Shown here piece by piece: positions 4,113 through 18,571 of a stretch of DNA of 26,501 nucleotides. The notes beneath the pieces are model-generated. The model searched no databases. It was given only the letters and a program-made list of their open reading frames with translations, and was not told the origin of the DNA. Source of the stretch: a virus; the IMG/VR virus record IMGVR_UViG_3300045999_010304, positions 1 to 26,501 of that record; one strand, 5' to 3'. The translations under genes and the position numbers were made by a program. Position 1 is the stretch's first letter, and every line of letters begins with the position of its first letter.

Positions 4113-4498
4113 GGGGATAACATGGTATCGATTTGGATGTTGAGGTGATACTACATGCAGGCGTTTGGTAGAGTCGCCTTAGAAAACTGCAAACAATAAC
4201 TGACGAAATGTCAACTATGACCTTCAACGACCTTATGGCGTTTGTAGGCGCCGACTACGCTTTAGCAGCCTAGTCCGCACTCGGGTGTGAGTAACCTAGG
4301 AACAGAAGACCACCGAGCGCTCACAATCGACTCGCTAAATAAGGACTGTGGATTAGTTTTCTTGATAGTCATAAAATCAAGTGGTGGAAACGACCATAAC
4401 GGTCAGCCCTACTGATCAGACTTGTTCAGATCTAAGCATGTGAGACGTTAGTATTATTGTCTCTTTCAAAGACGTGGGTTCGAATCCCACTATCTCCA
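4113..4498 (+). ncRNA. ssrA: tmRNA (transfer-messenger RNA), one-piece
   Basis: tmRNA rescues ribosomes stalled on broken messages by acting first as an alanyl-tRNA and then as a template for a degradation tag. The tRNA-like end is clear: GGGGATA (4113-4119) pairs with TATCTCC (4491-4497), the discriminator is A4498, and the T-arm is GTGGGTTCGAATCCCAC. CCA is not encoded. The first pseudoknot can be traced as GCAG and GGCG pairing with CTGC and CGCC between 4157 and 4190. The tag frame follows and ends YALAA-stop. The 386-base length is typical. Phage-borne tmRNA genes are known but uncommon. A strong terminator follows. Confidence 0.95.
4202..4273 (+). other. tmRNA tag reading frame, 23 codons
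   Basis: In E. coli tmRNA the resume codon lies 11 bases after the 3' strand of pseudoknot 1. Here the CTGC strand ends at 4190, followed by 11 bases (AAACAATAACT) and then GAC at 4202. From there the frame is open for 23 codons to TAG at 4271-4273, starting DEMSTMTF and ending GADYALAA. The last eight residues match the usual Bacteroidota tag form (G-x-x-x-YALAA); the preceding 15 residues are extra. Confidence 0.75.
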
Positions 4499-4509
4499 CT
4501 AATCTATTT

Positions 4510-4537
4510 AAAGGCAATCAGAAATGATTGCCTTTTT
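4510..4537 (+). terminator. Intrinsic terminator after tmRNA
   Basis: An 11-base perfect stem, AAAGGCAATCA (4510-4520) and TGATTGCCTTT (4525-4535), with a GAAA tetraloop and a T-run of five (4533-4537). It lies 12 bases after the tmRNA. A TATATTTA box (4537-4544) follows directly and could be the -7 element of the next operon, although no TTTG box lies 20 bases upstream. Confidence 0.9.
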
Positions 4538-4558: not shown

Positions 4559-5035
4559 ATGAAACTATTTCTAACAACTATATTAATATTCCTGTCTAGT
4601 TTATTAAAGGCCCAACCAGTATCTGTATACGTTGGTAATGTGACTAACAAAGTTAAAATAGGTTCACTTACTGGTAATAAAAATCTTGCATTTGGTGTTA
4701 AGAATATAGTTGAAGAAGCAATACTTGATAAAGGATATGATTTAAATAATAATAGTAGTGCTTTTAAATTAGATCTTGAAATAATTTATTTCGATATTCA
4801 ACAAACATCAACTGGTATAAGTGTATTTCATAAAACAGAAAACGAAACAATAATTCGAATAAAAGGTATTCTTTATACAGATGCTAAAAAACCTAAAGAA
4901 TACATTGCAATAGGAAAGTCCTCCGAAATCTCAACATCAACAATGATTATCGATGAAGGTGGTGGTTTTAATCAAGCTTCGGCCCGTTCTGCATTAAAAA
5001 AAACCATTATTAATTTAATTGAAAATTTACTATGA
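4559..5035 (+). CDS. Secreted small protein, possible CsgG-like fold
   Basis: The start is placed at 4559 because it gives a good signal peptide (MKLFLTTILIFLSSLLKAQ, cleavage after AQ); the frame extends upstream into the tmRNA, which is not credible coding. The mature part, about 139 aa, alternates short strands and helices: a VYVGNVTN strand, a helix with GVKNIVEEAI, then KLDLEIIYFDIQ, and a C-terminal helix (SARSALKKTIINLIENLL). This order resembles the alpha/beta domain of CsgG and YajG/FlgO-like envelope proteins, but no decisive motif is seen. It overlaps the next gene by 4 bases (ATGA), so the two are probably translated together. Confidence 0.7.
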   Translation: MKLFLTTILIFLSSLLKAQPVSVYVGNVTNKVKIGSLTGNKNLAFGVKNIVEEAILDKGYDLNNNSSAFKLDLEIIYFDIQQTSTGISVFHKTENETIIRIKGILYTDAKKPKEYIAIGKSSEISTSTMIIDEGGGFNQASARSALKKTIINLIENLL

Positions 5036-6933
5036 AAAAAGTATTATTAGTCATAGCACTTTTAATCAGTCATGTAATAGTATTTGCCCAAACACCTCAA
5101 ATCGGACACTTCCAAACCTTAACTACTGTTAGAAGAGGTGATACATTAGATGTTACCTGGTTTTACCGTCCGGGTGCTGCCGATGTTCGCACATTTCAGG
5201 TTGACTGGCAGTATAAAAAGACATTATTAACCCATATTTCCACTACAGTTGACGCTTCAGTAAATGGAATGACTCCTGCTGTAAGTTATAAGACCTGGGA
5301 TAATTACAAATACGGTAGTTATTCAAATGGTACTTATAATTACACATCTAATTCAGAGTGGACTATAGGCCGTAACTATTTAGTATTATCGAGTGGTTCA
5401 ACTATTGGATCTAGTGGATATATTATTCACAATAAGTATAAGATTAACTCTGTATCACCAAACTATGTTTCAGATACAATTACTGTAAACTGGGCTCGTA
5501 TGTTTGACGTTAACGGTACTACAATTGGTGATAATGTAGCTCAACTTACAAATCAAAAATTAGCAATTAAACTATTAGGTAACTTAACATTATCAGGTAA
5601 AGTATGGTTAGGTCCAAGTATGACTTTAAGACCAACAGTATGGTGTTATAAAGCAAGTAATAATGCCTTTATTGATTCCGTAACTGTAAACGCTGATGGT
5701 AGTTATGTTTTAGATAACGTTGATGAAAATACAAAGTACAAACTAGATGTTAGATTCCCAGCTCCACTTACCGCTATTAGAGATAATGCCGTAACAATAG
5801 CAGATGCTGTTAAGACATATGACGAATACACGGTTACAGATGTTAACCAAACATTTAGTAGAACTTATTTAAAAAATGGCTTAGCTTATCTAATTGCTGA
5901 TGTCAATAAGACAGGTACATTAGATGGTGGTGATGCTTATAGTATTTATGCTTCAGTATCTGGCCTGAAACCAATTGATACAGCTAAATTAATTAATGTA
6001 TTTACCAAAAGTGTTTATGACTCATTAGCAATAGGTACTAATCAATGGAATGATTGGGCATCTTATATCAATGGAGTAACATATGTTTTTGATAGTGTAG
6101 GTACAGGTAACCTAACAGGAGTAGACATTAAATACTTTATATTAGGTGATGTTGATAGAACCCACTCTTCTCCAGTATATGATGCGGGCGGTGCTTTAGT
6201 AGCTGCTGCTAAGTATATTGGAACACTTGATGTTAATATTCCAAATGTAACTGCTCCAACAGGTCAAGCAATGTATGCTAATTTCAATATGAATACCAAT
6301 GGTATTAAAAATGACGGCTTACAGTTTGAAATGAAATATGATCCTGCTAAGGTTAAATTTGAAGAAATTATTTCAAATATTCAAGGACCATGGTTACAAT
6401 ATCTAACACATGATGAAACAAATGGTATTATCCGTTTTGGAGGAATGAATAATCAAATTTTAGGATCATTAACAGGTAATGTTACTCCTTTTAAACTTAA
6501 ATTCTCTCCAATCGGAAATAATGATATTCAAACAAACGTTTATGTTAGACGCTTAATGGATGCTAGTGATAGAAATGGAGATCATTTTAATATTAATTTA
6601 GCATCAGATTATGTAGTATTATCTTCAAGAGCTAACCCGGGATATGTATTGCCTTCACCTGAAAAGGAAATTACAGCTATGATTCGTCCAAACCCAACTA
6701 GTGGTTTTTTTGAGTTAGTAGTAATGTTCCCTAGATCAAATATGAACTCATTAGCTAGAGTTTATGATACTCAAGGACGTTTAATTAAAGAAATAGGTAA
6801 AGTATCTAGTACTGAATACTATACAACTGTAGTTAAGCAAGTAGATTTAACAGCTGCTATAAATGGTAACTATTTATTAGTATTAGATAATGGAAACCAG
6901 AAACGTTTAACAAAACAATTTATTAAAATTTAA
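5032..6933 (+). CDS. Secreted multidomain protein with T9SS C-terminal sorting domain
   Basis: This is a 633 aa protein. Residues 1-20 are a signal peptide ending FAQ. Residues about 25-180 look like an N-terminal beta-sandwich. Residues 187-245 resemble a carboxypeptidase-regulatory/Cna-B type repeat (LSGKVWLG, then VNADGSYVLDNV). Residues 290-301 (DVNKTGTLDGGD) are a dockerin-like calcium loop, and GDVDRTHSSPVYDAGG (372-387) is a second related loop. Residues about 397-535 resemble a cohesin-type sandwich (LQFEMKYDPAKVKFEEI). Residues 550-633 match the type IX secretion type A sorting domain (RPNPTSGFFEL, RVYDTQGRLIKEI, GNYLLVL, terminal KQFIKI). In Bacteroidota that domain sends proteins through the outer membrane and often anchors them at the surface. 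The start overlaps the upstream gene by ATGA. A surface adhesin or receptor-masking role is plausible; a virion role is an alternative. Confidence 0.85.
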   Translation: MKKVLLVIALLISHVIVFAQTPQIGHFQTLTTVRRGDTLDVTWFYRPGAADVRTFQVDWQYKKTLLTHISTTVDASVNGMTPAVSYKTWDNYKYGSYSNGTYNYTSNSEWTIGRNYLVLSSGSTIGSSGYIIHNKYKINSVSPNYVSDTITVNWARMFDVNGTTIGDNVAQLTNQKLAIKLLGNLTLSGKVWLGPSMTLRPTVWCYKASNNAFIDSVTVNADGSYVLDNVDENTKYKLDVRFPAPLTAIRDNAVTIADAVKTYDEYTVTDVNQTFSRTYLKNGLAYLIADVNKTGTLDGGDAYSIYASVSGLKPIDTAKLINVFTKSVYDSLAIGTNQWNDWASYINGVTYVFDSVGTGNLTGVDIKYFILGDVDRTHSSPVYDAGGALVAAAKYIGTLDVNIPNVTAPTGQAMYANFNMNTNGIKNDGLQFEMKYDPAKVKFEEIISNIQGPWLQYLTHDETNGIIRFGGMNNQILGSLTGNVTPFKLKFSPIGNNDIQTNVYVRRLMDASDRNGDHFNINLASDYVVLSSRANPGYVLPSPEKEITAMIRPNPTSGFFELVVMFPRSNMNSLARVYDTQGRLIKEIGKVSSTEYYTTVVKQVDLTAAINGNYLLVLDNGNQKRLTKQFIKI

Positions 6934-6937
6934 CAAT

Positions 6938-7252
6938 ATGTCAGAAGAATTAGAAAACTCAAATGATGGTACTTTGTCTGGATTAAAAAAGACCATTATC
7001 GGTGTAGTAACAACCGCAGTTATGGGATTAGGAACTTGGGGAGTAACCCAAATAACAGGTGGCAATGACGAACCAGCTCCAGTTCAACAAGCAGCTCCAA
7101 TAATTAATATCCAAAACACTCAAACACAGCAACAATCAGCAGGTAGTGGAAAAACTGTAATTATTAGAGAAAAAGAAACTATCAAAGAAACAGCACCAAA
7201 ACCTAAAAAGAAAGAGGGTGATCAATTTAAAGAAAAAGAACCTCTGTGGTAA
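6938..7252 (+). CDS. Single-span membrane protein, 104 aa
   Basis: Not recognised. An N-terminal acidic stretch is followed by one membrane segment (TIIGVVTTAVMGLGTWGVTQI, about 19-39), a Pro/Ala/Gln-rich section and a strongly charged C-terminus (IIREKETIKETAPKPKKKEG). One N-terminal span with a long charged, extended tail is the general layout of inner-membrane spanins, and two more small membrane proteins follow, so a lysis role is possible. No family motif supports it directly. Confidence 0.65.
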   Translation: MSEELENSNDGTLSGLKKTIIGVVTTAVMGLGTWGVTQITGGNDEPAPVQQAAPIINIQNTQTQQQSAGSGKTVIIREKETIKETAPKPKKKEGDQFKEKEPLW

Positions 7253-7271
7253 TTTATAAAAATTAAAGTAT

Positions 7272-7844
7272 ATGCAACAACCAACAGGATTTAAAGAATT
7301 ATTAAATGCAATGATGCGCCGTAGATGGTTTATCACTGCTATTGTATTAGGTGGTTTTATGATTATCATATTAGGTATATTTGCTGCTATAGTAGGTAAA
7401 ACTGAAATAGGCGGTGAATGGAAAGAATTATTATTGTTATTGTTAGGTGCCTTCATAGGTAGTTATGGCAAAATAATCGATTACTGGTTCAGTGATACAG
7501 ATAAAGATAAAATGTTAGTTCAAAAAATGGATGAGGAAGATGGTACTAGCATGTCTCATACAAATGACATGAAAGAATCAAACAAACCAATCACACCATT
7601 AATTCCAGATGCTTTCATTACGGCTGCTGCTCATGCACATCAAACTAATATGGTTGAACTTGATATGAAAAAAGATCAGCAAGAGCATAATCAAATGATG
7701 TCTAAAGATCAACAAGAACATGAGCAAGAAATGGAAAAGTTAGAATTTGAATTTCAATCTCATAGACAATGTGAGCATGAGTGGGGTGATAGTGATTATG
7801 ATGGTGAATTAGAATGCCAAAAATGTGGTAAAATAAAAGATTAA
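7272..7844 (+). CDS. Two-span membrane protein with coiled coil and zinc ribbon
   Basis: The protein has 190 aa. Two hydrophobic segments (about 20-42 and 52-71) are separated by a short loop. They are followed by a polar linker, a Gln/Glu/His-rich helical stretch (about 125-162, with KDQQEH repeated twice) typical of a coiled coil, and a C-terminal metal site: CEHEW (C167, H169) and CQKCG (C182, C185). The C-terminal ribbon resembles the small zinc ribbons attached to many unrelated proteins. The membrane topology next to another two-span protein could indicate a holin-like pair, but the long soluble tail is unusual for a holin. The gene is co-directional with its neighbours, with 19- and 21-base gaps. 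Confidence 0.7.
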   Translation: MQQPTGFKELLNAMMRRRWFITAIVLGGFMIIILGIFAAIVGKTEIGGEWKELLLLLLGAFIGSYGKIIDYWFSDTDKDKMLVQKMDEEDGTSMSHTNDMKESNKPITPLIPDAFITAAAHAHQTNMVELDMKKDQQEHNQMMSKDQQEHEQEMEKLEFEFQSHRQCEHEWGDSDYDGELECQKCGKIKD

Positions 7845-7865
7845 AAACCAATAAAAATTAAAAGT

Positions 7866-8108
7866 ATGAAACAATTCCTAAAACATCTATTTGATGACAG
7901 TAACACAATCAATGAAAAATCAGTTGTAGGATTTACTGCATTTGTAATGATGGTAGTAACATTATTAGCTGATATTGTAACTGGTGTAATGGGTAAAACA
8001 ATGCCTATCCATGAGTTTGTATTTGATGGATTTATGGTTATTGTATTAGGTGCCTTTGGTATTGCCTCTGTGGATAAGTTTATAAATAAAAGAAAAGGTA
8101 ATGATTAA
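7866..8108 (+). CDS. Small two-span membrane protein, holin-like
   Basis: The 80 aa protein has a polar N-terminus, two membrane segments (about 21-43 and 51-68) and a short Lys-rich end (KFINKRKGND). Size and topology fit a class II holin, which would open the inner membrane at lysis, but holins share little sequence and no endolysin gene is visible in this window. It overlaps the CsgG-like gene by 8 bases, so it could equally be part of the envelope-protein operon. Confidence 0.65.
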   Translation: MKQFLKHLFDDSNTINEKSVVGFTAFVMMVVTLLADIVTGVMGKTMPIHEFVFDGFMVIVLGAFGIASVDKFINKRKGND

Positions 8109-8856
8109 ATATAAAGCTCAAATAAAATCTTTATTAATTGTTATTGTTTGGTTTGCAATAATGTTTTTTATTGCTACTAAAAGTATTGGTCAAACAATAG
8201 GAACAACAAAAACAGAAGACTATAAAGCATCATTTGAGAAAAAATCAAACATTGATAGCTTACTTGAATATGATGGTCCTAAAATCCCTATTCAGATACT
8301 TAGCTTAGGCATCAGTGAAGAGGTTTATGCTATGTATCCTGAACTAAAGGATAAGCGTGTTGGGTTAGGTGTAACTAATATTGTAGTTGAATTCTTAGAA
8401 GAGACTAACCATTTTACTTTTACTGAAGATAAAACTGAGATTAAAAATAGAATGGTTAAGCAGTTTCAAGCATCACAATCTGGAATTACTCAAGATAAGT
8501 TAGATGGTAAAGGTAAAATACGTTTAGCTCATTACTTTGCTTATATTGAATGCTATGATTTCTCAGTTTCAGAAGATGAAACAGTAAACATGAAAGATGG
8601 AGTTAAAAACACAGTTGTAACTCGCTTAGGTTTACAAGTTAAATTCGTTAATGCTGAAACTGGAGAGTACTTTACTGGTTCTGGTTTAGGTGAAGCTAAG
8701 ACAGTTAGAGAATTAACATTAATGAATGATGATAACTTTTCGGAGGTTAAATTTAATCAATCAACAATAGGTACTTCAACTAAAAAAGCACTTGAAATAG
8801 CAGCTGGTAAAATACTACTTCGTATGCATAAAAAAGGCATATTCAAAATGCAATAA
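8101..8856 (+). CDS. CsgG-like curli-secretion family protein
   Basis: CsgG forms an outer-membrane pore that exports curli subunits. This 251 aa protein has a hydrophobic N-terminus (about 10-30, possible signal peptide or anchor) and then the features of the CsgG fold: IQILSLG strand, GLGVTNIVVEFLEETNHFTFTED (the family's helix then 'grF' strand, 88-110), a variable Gln/Lys linker, LAHYFAYIECYDF (142-154, where the family has 'adyli.G.i'), and GLQVKFVNAETGEYFTGSG (177-195, the 'R.vda.TGeil.s' block), ending in a helix (KKALEIAAGKILLRM). The mature N-terminus lacks a lipobox cysteine, which E. coli CsgG has. The family call is good; pore function is inferred. The likely partners are the barrel and lectin genes downstream. 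Confidence 0.7.
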   Translation: MIKYKAQIKSLLIVIVWFAIMFFIATKSIGQTIGTTKTEDYKASFEKKSNIDSLLEYDGPKIPIQILSLGISEEVYAMYPELKDKRVGLGVTNIVVEFLEETNHFTFTEDKTEIKNRMVKQFQASQSGITQDKLDGKGKIRLAHYFAYIECYDFSVSEDETVNMKDGVKNTVVTRLGLQVKFVNAETGEYFTGSGLGEAKTVRELTLMNDDNFSEVKFNQSTIGTSTKKALEIAAGKILLRMHKKGIFKMQ

Positions 8857-8887
8857 GACACCAAGTATTTAAAATAAAACTTGATGA

Positions 8888-10393
8888 TTGAGAAAATTAA
8901 AAACATATCTAAGTGTGTTACTTATCATTTGTCTCAGTTGGAAAGCTGAGGCACAGACACTTACTTACTCATTTACTGATCCTTGTACTAAAGCAATAAC
9001 TTTATTCTCAATTCCTGCTACAGGTACAGTAATATATTTCCAAGGACAATCAAAATCATTTACATCAGCAGATATTCAAAACGGTACATTTGCCTCTTGG
9101 ATAAATCAAGTTTATACTAACTACCGTAAAATAGCTCCTTGTGGACAACAGCAAGGACAAGTAACTCAAAACCAAATCACATCACAGATTATAAGCAACA
9201 CAGTTCAAAGTGTTGTTAGTAGTATTATGAGTCAAGCTCAATCAGCAGCCTCTAGTACTATTACGGGTGTTGCTACATCATCATCAACTGCTAATGCTTC
9301 ATTAGCTGGAGGGGACGATGCTGCTAGTAAAAATAATAAGAATAATGATTCAAAACAAAAGAAAAAAGGAAATAATAATACAAATACAAATAACCAAAAT
9401 AATACATCAAGCTCAAGTAACTCTAATAACACTAACGGAAATACTCAAAACAACAGTACGTCAAGCTCAAACAGCTCTAACAATACTGGTGAAAACACTC
9501 AAAACAATAATACATCAAGTTCAAATAGCTCTAATAACAATGGAGGGAACAGCAGTAGTGGGAGTACTAGCAATACTAGTACTGGACAAACTACTAATCA
9601 AACCAATACTAGAACTGAACAAAAAGGTAAGGAAGTAGTGTCTACAGTTACAATGAATATAGATCAACAAAATCAAAACAGTTCTAAAGACGATAATAGC
9701 AGTAGTGGAGGAGGTAAAAGTAAAAACGGTAAAAGCGGATCAACTAACCCTCTAATAGTATCATCTGATTTCACAACAGCTCAAAATCTAGATAAATCAT
9801 TTACTCCAATCCTTAACTTAAGTATGTCCCAATCATCAATGACAGGAATGTCAAGTTGGGGTTTAACATCAATGATATGGTTTAATTTTAAGCAGTTTGC
9901 CCTATCAGGTAAGTATACAAAGATTAGTTTTAGTAAAGATGGTAAATTAAAATGGATACATAATGTTAATTTAACTGGTGTTTATTCGTATGGTAATATA
10001 ATCGGATTTTTAGGTTATAGTGGAATATTAAATGCTGGAAAGTGGGGTGTAACTGGATTTAATGTAAGTGGAGCTATGACATTAGTAACTGGGGAAGAGA
10101 AAAATACATTCCTATCACCCTCAATAACAGCATTTTATACTAAACCATTTAAAGGTAATAAACGTTTAACTATATCTCCTGAGTTGTATCTTATATCAGC
10201 ACCGTTGATATACTCAACCAAAGAAAAAGTAACAACAACAGATAGAACATTCAGTGCATTTATAGGCAGTGGATTTGACTACCAAATAACAAGACGTTTT
10301 AAGTTGAATATGAATTATAAGGCAAATTTGTCTACTAACCCAGAATTTCCTATATTATCGTTCTTCCTAATAGGTAGTAAGATTAATTTATGA
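8888..10393 (+). CDS. Probable outer-membrane beta-barrel with Asn/Ser-rich linker
   Basis: A TTG start at 8888 is used because it gives a signal peptide (MRKLKTYLSVLLIICLSWKA, then EAQ); no in-frame ATG fits as well. The 501 aa protein has three parts. The N-terminal domain (24-90) has two cysteines. A low-complexity linker (about 145-290) is very rich in Asn, Ser, Thr and Gly, with 18-residue imperfect repeats. The C-terminal half (about 290-501) alternates aromatic and polar residues in beta-strand style (GLTSMIWFNFKQFALSG and so on) and ends in INL without a T9SS domain. The last part resembles an outer-membrane barrel of 8-10 strands. It overlaps the lectin-like gene by ATGA and follows the CsgG-like gene by 31 bases. 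Confidence 0.75.
   Translation: MRKLKTYLSVLLIICLSWKAEAQTLTYSFTDPCTKAITLFSIPATGTVIYFQGQSKSFTSADIQNGTFASWINQVYTNYRKIAPCGQQQGQVTQNQITSQIISNTVQSVVSSIMSQAQSAASSTITGVATSSSTANASLAGGDDAASKNNKNNDSKQKKKGNNNTNTNNQNNTSSSSNSNNTNGNTQNNSTSSSNSSNNTGENTQNNNTSSSNSSNNNGGNSSSGSTSNTSTGQTTNQTNTRTEQKGKEVVSTVTMNIDQQNQNSSKDDNSSSGGGKSKNGKSGSTNPLIVSSDFTTAQNLDKSFTPILNLSMSQSSMTGMSSWGLTSMIWFNFKQFALSGKYTKISFSKDGKLKWIHNVNLTGVYSYGNIIGFLGYSGILNAGKWGVTGFNVSGAMTLVTGEEKNTFLSPSITAFYTKPFKGNKRLTISPELYLISAPLIYSTKEKVTTTDRTFSAFIGSGFDYQITRRFKLNMNYKANLSTNPEFPILSFFLIGSKINL
9392..9545 (+). repeat. Imperfect 54-base tandem repeats inside the barrel gene
   Basis: About three copies of a 54-base (18-codon) unit encoding variations of NTQNNSTSSSNSSNNTGE, the middle copies differing mainly at third positions and by Asn/Ser swaps. 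It lies in frame inside the 8888-10393 gene, so length change by recombination would keep the reading frame. Confidence 0.75.
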
Positions 10394-11829
10394 GGCTATT
10401 ACTAATCATATTATTATTCCCCTTTATGCTGTTTGGACAGTCAATTACTGCTCCACCTGGTAGAACTTATCAAGTAAGTGTTAGTGGACAAGATGCAAGT
10501 GGATTTGTGATTAGTGGGTTTGGATCAGAAACATTATTAACATCAATCGGTTTTGTAAACCCACCAGCTGGGGTAACATTTAGTATCACTACAACTACAG
10601 GATTATCATTTACTACAGGTTATAATTCTTGGACTAATCAAACACGTTTAAGTTTTACAGGAACACAAGCTAATGTAAATAATGCTTTAGCATCTCTAAA
10701 AGTAAACACAAGTTCTACTCTAGGTAATGTCCAAATATCAGTATCAACTACAGTTAATCCAACAGGTTACTTTTATAATCCCATTAATGGACACTTTTAT
10801 AGACCGATAGCTGTAGGTGCTACTTATGATAATGCTAAGGCTTTATCTGCTGGTCAAACATTTAAAGGTCAAACTGGGTATCTAGTAACTATCACTTCAG
10901 CAAATGAAGAGTCATTTATCATAACAAATGTACCTCAAAGTAATATTTGGTTTGCTTTAACAGATAGAGCACAAGAAGGATTTTGGAGAGTAGATGCTGG
11001 ACCTGAAAATGGCACTTTAATTAAAACAGCTAATGGACAATTAACAGGTAATATAGCAGGTCAATATAATAATTGGTGTAGTGGAGAACCAAACAACGCT
11101 GGTGGTGAACACTATGCTGTTACTAAGTGGGGTGGAGGTAGTTGTTGGAATGATTTACCTGGTACAGCTAGTTGGGCGAATCCTTATATAGTTGAATTTG
11201 GTACATGGGCGAACCCATCCGATGCTACATTCACAGGATTTTATACGGCTAATACTATTAATACAGTAGCAATTACAAATATATTAACAGGTACAGTTAC
11301 AATCCCTGGAGGATTAAGTTCAAGACCATTACTTACACTCTATAGAGTAGTAAATGGAGTTGATCAACTTGTAGACTATAAAACAGTAGCTGTGAACGGT
11401 ACTTATACCTTTACTTTACCGAATCAAAATTCAACCTACAAATTAGTACCATCATTAACAACACAAGGCATAACATCAGCTGATTTTGATTTAGTATGGG
11501 GTGAGATACAAAATGAAAGTACACCACCTATTACTGCTCAAGGTTTAGTAATGACTGGAACTAAGCAGTGGAAAGCAGCTGATATAAATGAAAATGGAAT
11601 ATTGGATCTAGGCGATACCTATCTAATAGCAGCTCATAACTCAGGATACAGACCAATAACTAAAGTATTATGGTTTAATTCAACTAATTATGATAATATC
11701 ACTAGATTAAATTTTAACACTATTAATGCAGTAACATCGTTTACTTTAAACGTAGTAACATCAGATATAACTCAAAATATTAAATACTGTATATTAGGGG
11801 ATATTAATTTATCTCATTCAAGCCAGTAA
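10390..11829 (+). CDS. Secreted C-type-lectin-like protein, C-terminus truncated
   Basis: The protein has 479 aa with a signal peptide at 1-17 (ending LFGQ). A beta-sandwich-like N-terminal part is followed by a C-type lectin-like domain (about 128-272): GYLVTITSANEESFI, IWFALTDRAQEGFWRV, NNWCSGEPNNAGGEHYAV and SCWNDLPG. The EPN (233-235) and WND (253-255) motifs are those that bind calcium and sugar in lectins. A beta module and a dockerin-like loop (DINENGILDLGD, 398-409) follow, then CILGDINLSHSS. This tail aligns with residues about 285-380 of the 5032-6933 protein, which continues into a cohesin-like module and T9SS domain. Here the frame stops one residue after the alignment. The CCAGTA sequence is retained but shifted by one base, so a one-base loss plus deletion of the rest is likely. 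It probably sits in the periplasm or leaks out, unless exported by the CsgG-like route. Confidence 0.85.
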   Translation: MRLLLIILLFPFMLFGQSITAPPGRTYQVSVSGQDASGFVISGFGSETLLTSIGFVNPPAGVTFSITTTTGLSFTTGYNSWTNQTRLSFTGTQANVNNALASLKVNTSSTLGNVQISVSTTVNPTGYFYNPINGHFYRPIAVGATYDNAKALSAGQTFKGQTGYLVTITSANEESFIITNVPQSNIWFALTDRAQEGFWRVDAGPENGTLIKTANGQLTGNIAGQYNNWCSGEPNNAGGEHYAVTKWGGGSCWNDLPGTASWANPYIVEFGTWANPSDATFTGFYTANTINTVAITNILTGTVTIPGGLSSRPLLTLYRVVNGVDQLVDYKTVAVNGTYTFTLPNQNSTYKLVPSLTTQGITSADFDLVWGEIQNESTPPITAQGLVMTGTKQWKAADINENGILDLGDTYLIAAHNSGYRPITKVLWFNSTNYDNITRLNFNTINAVTSFTLNVVTSDITQNIKYCILGDINLSHSSQ

Positions 11830-11833
11830 TTTT

Positions 11834-11865
11834 TTTGGTTCGGTCAAAATAATATTATATATTTA
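11834..11865 (+). promoter_or_regulatory. Promoter with CGGTCAAAAT element
   Basis: TTTG (11834-11837), 20 bases, TATATTTA (11858-11865), 25 bases before the lipoprotein ATG. The first 19 bases are identical to 2815-2833. It begins 4 bases after the stop of the lectin-like gene, so the deletion that truncated that gene may have brought this promoter in. Confidence 0.75.
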
Positions 11866-11890
11866 CATCAACATAAAACAATTATATATT

Positions 11891-12061
11891 ATGAAAAAAG
11901 TAATGTTCGTATTCGCAGTTGCAACTATGTTGGTTGCATGTGGAGGAAATGCATCAGTTGAAACTACAAACACTGACAGTACAACTGTAGTTGATTCTTC
12001 AGTAGTAGCAACAGATTCAACTGTAGCCGCAATTCCAGCTGATTCAGTTTCAGCAAAGTAA
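11891..12061 (+). CDS. Small lipoprotein, 56 aa
   Basis: The short protein begins MKKVMFVFAVATMLVACGG, a standard lipoprotein signal with a lipobox (LVAC) and the cysteine at residue 17, and has a Ser/Thr/Val/Asp-rich tail. After lipidation it would sit in an envelope membrane; the residues after Cys (GGNAS) do not show the acidic motif linked to surface export in some Bacteroidota. Its own promoter and a downstream hairpin make it a single-gene unit, which suggests strong expression. Function unknown; small phage lipoproteins can act in superinfection exclusion or as outer-membrane spanins. Confidence 0.75.
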   Translation: MKKVMFVFAVATMLVACGGNASVETTNTDSTTVVDSSVVATDSTVAAIPADSVSAK

Positions 12062-12067
12062 TTAAGA

Positions 12068-12084
12068 GGGGGCGATGAGCCCCC
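12068..12084 (+). terminator. Hairpin after the lipoprotein gene
   Basis: GGGGGC (12068-12073) and GCCCCC (12079-12084) enclose GATGA. No real T-run follows (ACTTTA), but a TAATTTCA box (12089-12096) does, 5 bases before the next ATG. It belongs to a set of four GC hairpins placed just before start codons (also 20246, 21349, 22372). Confidence 0.6.
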
Positions 12085-12101
12085 ACTTTAATTTCAAAGT
12101 T

Positions 12102-12596
12102 ATGTATAAGATAAAGCAATTCTTTAAACGTATCTACAATCTATATCGTTGGTTTCCTATCATATGGAAGGATCAGGATTGGGATGATCATTATATTTTT
12201 GAGATTCTTAAATTCAAACTTAAGAATCAAGCTAAATATATTAGCTACCATAATCGTCATATTAGTGCTAAACGCGATGCTGAAATAATGATGTTATGTG
12301 TTCGTTTAATTGAAAAAGTACAAGATGAATACTATGGCGGTGAATACCAAAACTACAATAAGACAGAACTAAGATTTATAGATAGTGAAACTCACCCAGG
12401 AATGTATGAAATAGAAATAGAAGAAATATCAGAATGTTTCGATAAATACTTTAAAAAATATCCTCGCATTTACAAACAAGTAAACGGTATAAATAGACAT
12501 AATATAGCATTTAATATAGCTAGAATAAACGAAGAACGAGCACACAAATTACTATTTAAAATATTAGAACAAAACATTAAAAGATGGTGGGATTAA
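12102..12596 (+). CDS. Hypothetical phage protein, 164 aa
   Basis: The start is placed at 12102 because an earlier in-frame ATG (12075) lies inside the hairpin. The protein begins MYKIKQFFKRIYNLYRWFP, then WKDQDWDDHYIFEILKFKL, and is rich in Tyr, Lys and Glu. I recognise the general look of a small protein widely seen in large phages (an IWKDxDWDxxY..ILxxKL core) but can give no function. The 3' end overlaps the next small gene by 13 bases. Confidence 0.7.
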   Translation: MYKIKQFFKRIYNLYRWFPIIWKDQDWDDHYIFEILKFKLKNQAKYISYHNRHISAKRDAEIMMLCVRLIEKVQDEYYGGEYQNYNKTELRFIDSETHPGMYEIEIEEISECFDKYFKKYPRIYKQVNGINRHNIAFNIARINEERAHKLLFKILEQNIKRWWD

Positions 12597-14010: not shown

Positions 14011-14232
14011 ATGAGTAATAGAAGAAATTTCTTAAAGACATTTACAATGGCAGCAGTAGCAGCTGCTCTGCCATTGCCAAATATACAACCTAAAAAACTA
14101 GTTATTAAATCAACGGGATATGAGGGTATAGGTGTTGGAGTATATGGAGTAGAGCGAATGAGAATAACATCTAACGGTAACATCTGTTTAGGAACAACAA
14201 CTCCAAATACTAAATTAAAATTACATATCTAA
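14011..14232 (+). CDS. Small Tat-signal protein with tail-fibre-like motif
   Basis: The 73 aa protein begins MSNRRNFLKTFTMAAVAAAL, matching the twin-arginine consensus (RRxFLK) with a hydrophobic run, so it could be exported folded to the periplasm. The rest ends RMRITSNGNICLGTTTPNTKLK, a motif typical of phage tail-fibre and chaperone-associated repeats (ITSNGNVGIGTTTP). Here that motif is at the very end, as if a fibre gene were cut off after it, fused to an export signal. The stop overlaps the next start by one base. It may be a remnant or a true small secreted protein. Confidence 0.65.
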   Translation: MSNRRNFLKTFTMAAVAAALPLPNIQPKKLVIKSTGYEGIGVGVYGVERMRITSNGNICLGTTTPNTKLKLHI

Positions 14233-14507
14233 TGGAAAATAATCGTAGATCATTTTTTAAAGGACTAGCAACATTCGCTAGTGGAGTAGTAGCAGCTAAA
14301 GCGGCTTCTTATATTCCAAAGAAAGAAGAACCAAAAGAACAATTATTGGTATCTAGTGCTATTACTCTTAATCATGAAGGTAAAGAATATCACCCATTGG
14401 TAGTAGAAAAAACAACATATGATGGTATGGAATTTGTACCAACCAACATTAGTCATAGTTTCGCTATTCAAGGACATAAACCAAAAATTAGGGAAGCAAA
14501 CGTATGA
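14232..14507 (+). CDS. Second small Tat-signal protein, 91 aa
   Basis: It begins MENNRRSFFKGLATFASGVV, again with a twin arginine followed by FFK and a weakly hydrophobic, Ala-rich stretch ending near AKAASYIP. The mature part, about 60 aa, is beta-like (LLVSSAITLNHEGKEYHPLVVEK) with no metal or cofactor motif. Tat export normally serves folded or cofactor-bearing proteins, and none is evident here. It starts in the stop of the other Tat gene and overlaps thyA by 4 bases, so it is coupled on both sides. Confidence 0.65.
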   Translation: MENNRRSFFKGLATFASGVVAAKAASYIPKKEEPKEQLLVSSAITLNHEGKEYHPLVVEKTTYDGMEFVPTNISHSFAIQGHKPKIREANV

Positions 14508-17726: not shown

Positions 17727-17924
17727 ATGAATAAATACGAAGCATTAGGAGACAATTATTTCGGATTTGAATTATTTGAAGAAGTATTTAAAGTAATTAA
17801 TGAACGTGGCTACTCACATGATGATAACATGTTTAAAGCAGGTGTAGCAAGCGCTGAAGCTGCTGTAAGGCGTTTAAGAGAAGAATATTATGAAGCCATA
17901 TCTAAATCAGTAATGGATATGTAG
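17727..17924 (+). CDS. Hypothetical protein, 65 aa
   Basis: Not recognised. It is a small, probably helical, acidic protein (MNKYEALGDNYFGFELFEEVF). The stop lies 14 bases before the start I use for the secreted nuclease. Confidence 0.55.
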   Translation: MNKYEALGDNYFGFELFEEVFKVINERGYSHDDNMFKAGVASAEAAVRRLREEYYEAISKSVMDM

Positions 17925-17938
17925 TGATATTTATAGGT

Positions 17939-18571
17939 ATGAAATACCTATTATCACTCCTTCTATTAATTAGTTTTACTGTTTCAGCTCAAGATACAGT
18001 TACTATTACTCACAAAGCGTACAAAACAACTTATAGCAAATCCAAACATTACCCTGTCAAGGTTGAATGGTGGATAAGTAGAGCATCTATTACGTGTGAT
18101 GTTAAAGCAAAACGTGGAGATAAATTTATACCTGATCCTAAATTAGCTGCTGAAACTAATTTACAATCAGACTATACAGGTCAAGGATTTGATCGTGGGC
18201 ATAACTTCCCAGCAGCAGACGCATCATGTGATCAAGTAATAAATGATGAGTCATTTTACTTCAGTAATATGACAGCTCAATACCCAGCACTCAATCGTGG
18301 TGATTGGAAAACATTAGAGGAAATGACACGCACCGAGGCTAAATTATATGACTCAGTTTATGTTTGGTGTGGTTCAGTAGGCGAAGTTAAGAAAATAGGT
18401 AAAGTATCAGTACCAAAGCAATGTTGGAAAGTATTATATACTAAACGTTTAAACACATATAGCGCATTTCTATTCGACAACAATACTACTAAAGCAGATG
18501 GAGTTAAAAATAATGAAGTACCTTTAGAATTAGTCGAACAAATTTCTGGATTTAAATTTAAAGTTAAGTAA
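17939..18571 (+). CDS. Secreted DNA/RNA non-specific endonuclease (NUC1/EndoG family)
   Basis: I start at 17939 rather than 17924 because this ATG begins a proper signal peptide (MKYLLSLLLLISFTVSAQ). The mature protein has the betabetaalpha-metal nuclease signature: GFDRGHNFPAAD (83-94, catalytic His88), ESFYFSNMTAQYPALNRGDWKTLE (104-127, metal-binding Asn119) and CWKVLYTKR (162-170). These nucleases cut DNA and RNA with little sequence preference. Export points to the periplasm or outside, where it could degrade host or competing-phage DNA on entry, or extracellular DNA, without harming phage replication. Its stop overlaps the SpeD-like gene by 1 base. Confidence 0.9.
   Translation: MKYLLSLLLLISFTVSAQDTVTITHKAYKTTYSKSKHYPVKVEWWISRASITCDVKAKRGDKFIPDPKLAAETNLQSDYTGQGFDRGHNFPAADASCDQVINDESFYFSNMTAQYPALNRGDWKTLEEMTRTEAKLYDSVYVWCGSVGEVKKIGKVSVPKQCWKVLYTKRLNTYSAFLFDNNTTKADGVKNNEVPLELVEQISGFKFKVK

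Follow-up and report, generated by a model that had tools for sequence, protein, structure and literature searches.

The 26,501-nucleotide virus record IMGVR_UViG_3300045999_010304 (26.5 kb, analysed whole and called the window below) carries, at positions 4559-12061, a block of eight consecutive same-strand genes, P1 to P8, and a small lipoprotein gene. The block lies between a transfer-messenger RNA (tmRNA) gene and a GC-rich hairpin. Coordinates are those of the window, and the genes and domains given are on its plus strand. We find that the gene set is conserved in divergent phages, that its putative scaffold protein occurs with either of two anchors, and that the binding heads of its lectin protein are exchanged between phages. 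Because of the domain content, the anchors and the head exchange, we favour a surface adhesin system. We give an even chance to the reading that the block encodes an adhesin display complex on the infected Bacteroidota cell, probably made late in infection.

Five of the eight products (P1, P2, P6, P7 and P8) look exported, and three (P3, P4 and P5) are small membrane proteins. The signal-peptide N termini of the five were read by eye; a crude signal-peptide pattern accepted the window copies of P1, P2, P6 and P7 and rejected that of P8. Among relatives the pattern was found in 72 of 82 P6, 76 of 82 P7, 59 of 75 P1 and 79 of 105 P2/P8 proteins, the misses including cut or extended frames. A first-pass annotation, made from the sequence alone, had listed signal-peptide proteins, a CsgG-like protein, a probable outer-membrane barrel, a protein sorted by the type IX secretion system (T9SS), a C-type-lectin-like protein and a lipoprotein. 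All the genes so listed are present, the signal peptide of P8 by eye only. It had also described several ATGA overlaps between the genes; two junctions are exactly so (5032-5035 and 10390-10393), while the third overlap is 8 nucleotides long (8101-8108). P3, P4 and P5, the cohesin- and dockerin-like modules and the hairpins on both sides had escaped it.

The gene set recurs in divergent phages

P6 (8101-8856, 251 amino acids) is the most conserved member of the block (mean column identity 70% over 31 sequences), and a relative of it is encoded on 514 stretches in IMG/VR. The best 80 of these, together with Flavobacterium phage immuto, an isolate, and the window, made up 82 loci (sample 1). The near-identical relatives of the window are IMG/VR contigs; one that is a copy of it, L081, was dropped from the 82-locus counts, and L014-L016, with shared coordinates and near-equal identities, are probably copies of one genome. 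A scan with the P6 of immuto gave 80 other loci that had no sampled 100-mer in common with sample 1 (sample 2). Counts from sample 2 are restricted to the 50 loci with at least 6 kb on both flanks of P6. In immuto the block is intact at 10-16 kb (gp13-gp19): gp13 is the lectin, gp14 and gp15 correspond to P2, with the cohesin and T9SS tail in gp15, and gp16, gp17, gp18 and gp19 are P3, P6, P7 and P1.

Within sample 1, P6 was present in all 82 loci by construction, P7 in 80, the P2/P8 family in 79, P1 in 75, P3 in 61, a P5-type gene in 57 and P4 in 40. P1, P2/P8, P6 and P7 occurred all together in 73 of the 82 loci, which exceeds chance. Of the nine incomplete loci, eight have P6 about 2.3 kb or less from a contig end, and the ninth (L032) has a P1 match by direct comparison. 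In sample 2, gp14-type, gp15-type, P7 and P1 genes were each found in 50 of 50 loci, P3 in 45 and P4 in 25. All 50 have a separate gp13-type head gene, and in 33 of them gp14 and gp15 both match one fused P2-type protein. When the loci were dereplicated at 90% P6 identity, 22 groups were left in sample 1 and 15 in sample 2, with P7 in 21 and 15 of them and P1 in 20 and 15. The check that the first-pass annotation had proposed, a search for the same gene set in related phages, thus found the set, including in a cultured phage, and its description of a phage-carried envelope or surface block holds for the relatives (73 of 82 loci, and 50 of 50 well-flanked loci in sample 2).

The block is not a captured host fragment. 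The first-pass annotation had allowed for recent capture with absence from relatives; we saw no sign of it and rejected it, since the set is common to divergent phages and a scan of bacterial genome contigs (one scan with two peptide patterns, 96 stretches matched) gave only two P6 relatives, each on a metagenome-assembled contig together with block genes and a phage-type endolysin. L148, a contig of 254 kb assigned to the bin of an uncultured Bacteroidetes genome, has the block, a second barrel-like protein and the endolysin, and may be an unrecognised large phage. The second barrel protein had raised the suspicion of a split P7, which we rejected: the 544-residue protein has a barrel-like C terminus of its own.

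P2 occurs with either of two predicted anchors

P2 (5032-6933, 633 amino acids) has a signal peptide, a dockerin-like module, a cohesin region and a C-terminal T9SS sorting domain, and is our candidate for a surface scaffold. Its C terminus matches Por_Secre_tail (Pfam, 3.2e-6; 27.8 bits against a cut-off of 27) as a T9SS type A-like sorting domain at 6688-6924 (residues 553-631). As far as sequence can tell, P2 has what a T9SS type A cargo should have, a sorting tail and a signal peptide (crude pattern). Por_Secre_tail was found at E 0.01 in all 18 relatives scanned, a set preselected as visibly tail-bearing: the 18 were taken from 25 dereplicated sequences, leaving out L080, L054, L045, L053, L021, L015 and L082, which look tail-less.

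In a sister clade the tail is replaced by a separate lipoprotein, whose gene comes after that of P2. The P2 proteins of the two clades are homologous over residues 2-538, ending near the start of the tail. Among 78 P2-type proteins upstream of P6, 33 had the tail only, 41 the lipoprotein only, none both and four neither; this table is not dereplicated, its hidden Markov models were trained on sequences from the very loci counted, and the P2 of L082, which clusters with gp13, is scored as neither. The lipoprotein is itself homologous to the P2 tail (P 1.8e-5, probability 78%), and Por_Secre_tail is recognised in 12 of 27 sister-clade lipoproteins at E 0.5 (best 5.9e-5). The best argument for an action of P2 at the cell surface is, in our view, that two different anchors would hold one and the same protein there.

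The residues after the lipid-bearing cysteine point the same way. A polar and then an acidic residue follow it in 27 of 40 distinct lipoprotein-type open reading frames (ORFs; two of the 40 lack a lipobox) and in one of 20 other lipobox ORFs of the same loci, a pattern chosen after a looser motif test had separated the two groups poorly. The pattern resembles the surface-export signals SDDFE and SDDDD of Bacteroidetes lipoproteins, as given in the consulted part of PMC5080379.

The cohesin-like region of P2 (6226-6636) is homologous to that of the sister clade, whose members match Cohesin: the Pfam family is found in 21 of 29 sister-clade P2 proteins (best 1.5e-11), in four of 18 of the window's own clade and in immuto gp15 (5.9e-9). 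P2 profiles run against PDB sequences named no cohesin; the 6226-6636 region alone reaches just E 0.63, with a scaffoldin that contains cohesins. The dockerin-like module of P2 aligns with the C-terminal module of P8 (hhalign P 4e-16) and includes a calcium loop at 5899-5934 (residues 290-301). The residue pattern by which the loops of both proteins were called is the one that we take to be characteristic of dockerins.

P8 carries a lectin head that is exchanged

P8 (10390-11829, 479 amino acids) consists of a signal peptide read by eye, an N-terminal domain, a C-type lectin domain (10792-11187) and a dockerin-like C terminus, and is proposed to be an exchangeable adhesin head. The window protein scores 0.0013 against Pfam Lectin_C, below the cut-off, and the family profile finds solved C-type lectins in PDB (langerin, 1.4e-6, and also mannose-binding proteins). 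The motifs EPN (11086-11094) and WND (11146-11154), presumably the calcium- and sugar-binding site, occur in 51 of 57 P8 relatives, that is, in all that the alignment covers (six are uncovered). This alignment-based count replaced a crude lectin regular expression, which had found 13 proteins only. The conserved site and the exchangeable heads lend weight to adhesion, one of the roles suggested in the first-pass annotation.

A dockerin-like calcium loop lies at 11581-11616 (residues 398-409). Its positions 1, 3, 5, 9 and 12 are D, N, N, D and D in 44 of the 57 relatives, with near variants in six and seven uncovered; a second loop appears degenerate by eye.

Phages exchange these binding heads. 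From 4 to 15 kb, DNA identity of the window to the relative L002 is 95.6-100% in all 250-base bins except five. Three quarters of a kilobase at 10.5-11.25 kb, encoding the P8 N-terminal domain and lectin, is only 68-74% identical, and 12.25-12.75 kb, in the downstream gene, is 81-90% identical; below 4 kb the two bins given are at 92-95%. Segment 53-285 of the L002 P8 is 94% identical to another relative, L007, and 69% to the window, with which the sequence on either side of the segment agrees at 99-100%. Lectin variation thus takes the form of a swapped block in the single pair compared, and we set aside a diversity-generating retroelement as its source; no search was made for a template repeat or reverse transcriptase.

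Exchange is also seen in the immuto clade, where the dockerin-like tail is joined to PA14, GEVED, a lectin, or laminin-G plus lectin. The best Pfam matches of these heads are Lectin_C 1.4e-16, PA14 4.9e-7, GEVED 7.3e-13 and Laminin_G_3 6.2e-12. Among the ten head proteins scanned, those of L171 and L148 had no Pfam match and that of L200 is a P2-type protein. The gp13-family proteins of L160, L179, L192, L214, L218, L220 and L223 combine different head folds with one type of dockerin-like tail and form a natural set for the study of glycan specificity.

P6, P7 and P1 resemble envelope proteins

P6 has a signal peptide and is predicted to be a periplasmic or outer-membrane protein with the CsgG/PelC fold. 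Its model (predicted local distance difference test, pLDDT, 73.9) matches CsgG by Foldseek (1.3e-6) and by superposition (Z 11.7 over 165-170 residues; root-mean-square deviation 3.8-4.1). PelC is nearly tied (Z 10.7) and LptE-like folds are close behind. P6 matches no Pfam family at E 1, and its profile finds nothing among PDB sequences at E 10. P1 (4559-5035, 158 amino acids, with a signal peptide) is small and colinear with the C-terminal part of P6, which suggests a CsgG-like core; the match to the P6 family is weak (hhalign P 0.0033, probability only 9.7%), and the P1 profile finds no credible PDB relative by sequence. Pfam recognised no CsgE, CsgF or CsgA/B in the block, where divergent forms are possible.

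P7 (8888-10393, 501 amino acids, TTG start) is predicted to have a signal peptide, a small N-terminal domain with a helix, a linker and a 12-strand outer-membrane barrel. The model has a mean pLDDT of 66, with a helical N-terminal part; the linker (about 150 residues, Asn/Ser-rich, disordered) falls below pLDDT 50. The barrel matches the autotransporters NalP and EspP and others at Z 23-20 and FapF at Z 18.5, a likeness common to many barrels. Against PDB sequences the P7 profile gave matches of a low-complexity kind. We also considered the N-terminal domain of P7 as a CsgF, presumably alike at the N terminus; this was unsupported, its sole PDB match at E 10 being unrelated.

The three small membrane proteins lie between P2 and P6. 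P3 (6938-7252, 104 amino acids) has one transmembrane stretch followed by a Pro-rich tail with an invariant terminal Trp (38 sequences). P4 (7272-7844, 190 amino acids) has two transmembrane stretches and then an acidic, Cys-containing tail, a putative holin-like topology. P5 (7866-8108, 80 amino acids) has two transmembrane stretches and is weakly holin-like.

An endolysin gene often adjoins the block

In sample 1, 54 of the 82 loci encode an endolysin (PG_binding_1 plus GH19) no more than 9 kb from P6; in sample 2, 30 of 50 do so within 6 kb. The same holds within 5 kb for 12 of 17 long relatives of our choosing; four of the 12 (G007, G008, G009 and G013), with identical values of identity, probably belong to a single lineage. 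Two of the 17 have a weak endolysin match only (G002) or none (G003). Because the endolysin often adjoins the block, though not in all relatives, expression around lysis seems likely, and the block is probably late-expressed.

This neighbourhood is also an argument for reading the block as a module for outer-membrane lysis or egress, with P4 and P5 as holins, P3 as a spanin-like protein, P6 and P7 opening or weakening the outer membrane and P2 and P8 as accessories. A part in lysis timing, as pinholin or secretin, has been suggested for the CsgG/CsgF pair of phage Melnitz (consulted part of PMC9004378), and a few members of the P5 family weakly match PHROG holins (at most four of 30, best 0.0054), as P3 matches an Rz-like spanin PHROG (0.018). 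None of these holin and spanin scores rises above noise, and no PHROG match of the P4 family was named holin (20 of 22 members scanned). Proteins of the P2/P8 type, which would be accessories in a lysis module, are as constant as P7 (79 and 80 of 82 loci; 50 of 50 for both in sample 2). Moreover, the annotated endolysin and holin of immuto lie about 27 kb from its intact block. On balance we regard a lysis module as unlikely.

Flanks of the block and neighbouring genes

The tmRNA gene (4113-4499; Rfam, 72 bits) lies just upstream of the block and encodes a tag ending in ADYALAA. It is found just upstream of P1 in eight of the ten closest loci scanned (absent from L004 and L011; L005 was not scanned) and in none of eight other loci scanned. 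A terminator-like hairpin with a T tail (4510-4535, plus strand) separates it from P1, and a GC-rich hairpin (12068-12084, no strand assigned) lies 3' of the last gene of the block. The region has three terminator-like hits, not above the mean of 3.8 in shuffled sequences.

The lipoprotein gene (11891-12061, 56 amino acids, Ser/Thr/Asp-rich) is loosely associated with the block. Right after the cysteine its product has no acidic residue (GGNAS), and it belongs to the background list of the motif test above. Relatives of this gene sit elsewhere in other loci, for example at 5454 in L003 and 5658 in L006. In the gene that follows (12075-12596), which differs between the window and L002, the listed start falls inside the hairpin and 12102 is a likelier one.

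Further downstream, two short overlapping genes at 14011-14507 each have a twin-arginine-like start (Pfam TAT_signal for the first), and the first of the two has matches to very long ORFs of L030, L050 and L071, which may be tail fibres. An Endonuclease_NS-type nuclease with a signal-peptide-like N terminus is encoded at 17924-18571 (1.6e-38). Its relatives lie inside the block, in the P6-P7 or P7-P8 gap, in eight of the 82 loci (L009, L013, L017, L018, L019, L023, L040 and L057).

Discussion

The conserved gene set, the domains, the exchange of anchors and of heads and, for most relatives, the nearby endolysin are computational results; from them we infer the surface location, the pairing of cohesin with dockerin, the roles of P6, P7 and P3, the timing and the purpose. 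We propose that the Sec pathway would export P1, P2, P6, P7 and P8 from the cytoplasm. P2 would be a scaffold held at the surface, by its T9SS tail in the phage studied here and by a separate, tail-like surface lipoprotein in the sister lineage. P8 would be a calcium-dependent head for sugars, attached through its dockerin-like C terminus to a cohesin of P2. An envelope-spanning apparatus for export or seating fits the topologies of the remaining proteins: P6 as a CsgG-fold ring, P1 as its small CsgG-like partner, P7 as a barrel with a periplasmic arm and P3 as an arm anchored in the inner membrane may together export or seat the complex. The block would be made late, near lysis. As for purpose, the lectin would most likely bind glycans of neighbouring hosts or of the cell's own surface, and so keep lysing cells, debris and progeny near new hosts, or mask receptors. 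The phages that carry the block make up a widespread family of large viruses, and their hosts are presumably Bacteroidota, to judge from immuto, the T9SS tails and the signal peptides.

A more specific version is put forward tentatively. Here the CsgG-fold protein and the barrel would build an adhesion organelle, a cohesin-dockerin scaffold bearing glycan-binding heads that can be exchanged, and sibling hosts would thereby retain lysing cells and progeny. The head would be a fast-evolving cartridge, swapped like a tail fibre and acting on the cell surface.

Several observations speak against an adhesin display complex. P3, P4 and P5 are inconstant (61, 40 and 57 of 82 loci). The cohesin region of the window was assigned by profile homology, Pfam giving no match to it at E 1, and the dockerin matches in Pfam (0.0091-0.024) are below the cut-off. 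Among 54 distinct best matches of gp13, 34 have the lectin signature and 20 lack EPN/WND; of the eight dereplicated proteins behind these 20, those of L180, L200 and L219 look P2-type and were matched via the shared module. The looser lipoprotein motif test (at least two acidic residues at +2 to +6) gave no clear separation (19 of 35 lipoproteins and 9 of 25 background ORFs), its background holding some unclustered members of the same lipoprotein family. The endolysin is far from P6 in G001 (the record of L009, whose P6 is 88% identical to that of the window), G004, G015 and immuto. P6 and P7 need not be exporters if the T9SS tail exports P2. The first-pass call of a CsgG-like protein stands as to the predicted fold but gains neither a Pfam or sequence match nor a lipobox: the window copy has no lipid-anchored Cys of the CsgG kind, and a crude pattern finds one in seven of 82 copies. 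The candidate membrane hairpins of P6 are amphipathic strands with charged tips, none clearly of the CsgG type. P6 may thus be a poreless ring. Finally, no clumping of cells occurred in cultures of Melnitz, a phage with a CsgG/CsgF pair, according to the consulted part of PMC9004378.

Superinfection exclusion or receptor masking seems to us improbable to about the same degree as a lysis module. A displayed lectin would cover the cell's own glycans, or the exported proteins would block adsorption of other phages. The predicted surface location, the swapping of heads between close relatives, as expected under an arms race, and the nuclease inside the block in eight of 82 loci all suit such a function. 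The position near lysis genes in most relatives fits it poorly. A large multi-protein complex would also be costly next to the known exclusion proteins that take one gene.

It is very improbable that the heads are receptor-binding proteins of the particle, that is, virion or tail decorations. Lectin and laminin-G domains do occur in virion fibres of large phages (consulted part of PMC7824862), head swapping resembles tail-fibre evolution, and some loci have long ORFs close to the block that we took for tail fibres. Nevertheless, given signal-peptide-like N termini, T9SS tails and lipoprotein anchors, the proteins would leave the compartment of virion assembly, and these features argue against the first-pass alternative that they are virion components. 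In immuto, too, the annotated tail and head genes (131-160 kb) are far from the block (10-16 kb; the 79-129 kb part was outside our view). The open-licence literature, including the consulted part of PMC7077304, yielded no virion proteomics of immuto. Nutrient capture, in which the complex would bind polysaccharide to feed the infected cell, is suggested by glycan-binding heads on a Bacteroidota surface and is highly unlikely, as Pfam scans of the block proteins named no polysaccharide-degrading enzyme besides the endolysin and no Sus-like transporter.

An adhesin display complex, if confirmed, would mean that phages can supply the cell they infect with an entire modular adhesion system and not a single exclusion lipoprotein, and would change models of progeny retention and of cell-surface competition in aquatic Bacteroidota. 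Since the block is common (514 stretches) and present in the isolated pair of immuto and Flavobacterium sp. LMO8, sibling capture and lysis timing, the ideas put forward for phages with CsgG, would then be open to direct tests. The interpretation given in the first-pass annotation is partly supported.

Comparison with known systems

Immuto (Immutovirus) is the closest isolated counterpart. It differs in the division of P2 into gp14 and gp15 and has no match to P4 or P5 in its first 29 kb; gp14 and gp16-gp19 are annotated as hypothetical. A phage block with both cohesin and dockerin was not found in the open-licence literature, searched by full-text terms and seen as titles and the starts of abstracts. 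Cohesin, dockerin, curli and CsgG are all absent from the main text of PMC7824862, an overview of jumbo phages, as are cohesin and curli from the consulted part of PMC9853417.

Cellulosome scaffolds likewise distribute cohesins and dockerin-like calcium loops over partner proteins. Unlike them, the block has no recognised enzymes, carries binding domains as heads, is phage-encoded and has dockerins below the Pfam cut-off. The curli channel CsgG (type VIII secretion) and PelC rings share the predicted fold of P6. P6 differs from them in that it matches no Pfam family, that its window copy is without a lipobox and that its membrane hairpins are unclear; nor was a curlin recognised. FapF and autotransporters have a 12-strand barrel as predicted for P7, a generic likeness, and P7 is set apart by its disordered linker of about 150 residues and its N-terminal domain.

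Phage-borne CsgG genes are already known. The CsgG/CsgF genes of pelagimyophages and Melnitz likewise place a CsgG fold in a phage and have been suggested to act at the surface or in lysis; for the curli genes of pelagimyophages the suggestion was sibling capture (consulted part of PMC7029224). According to the consulted part of PMC9004378, thyX and ssrA immediately precede csgGF in Melnitz, and the present block is likewise 3' of a tmRNA gene. Unlike these CsgGF pairs, it has no recognised CsgF, presumably belongs to phages of Bacteroidota and adds a long-linker barrel, cohesin- and dockerin-like proteins, exchangeable heads and T9SS or lipoprotein anchors. Compared with Melnitz and the pelagimyophages, a sugar-binding head is here encoded beside the CsgG-fold gene.

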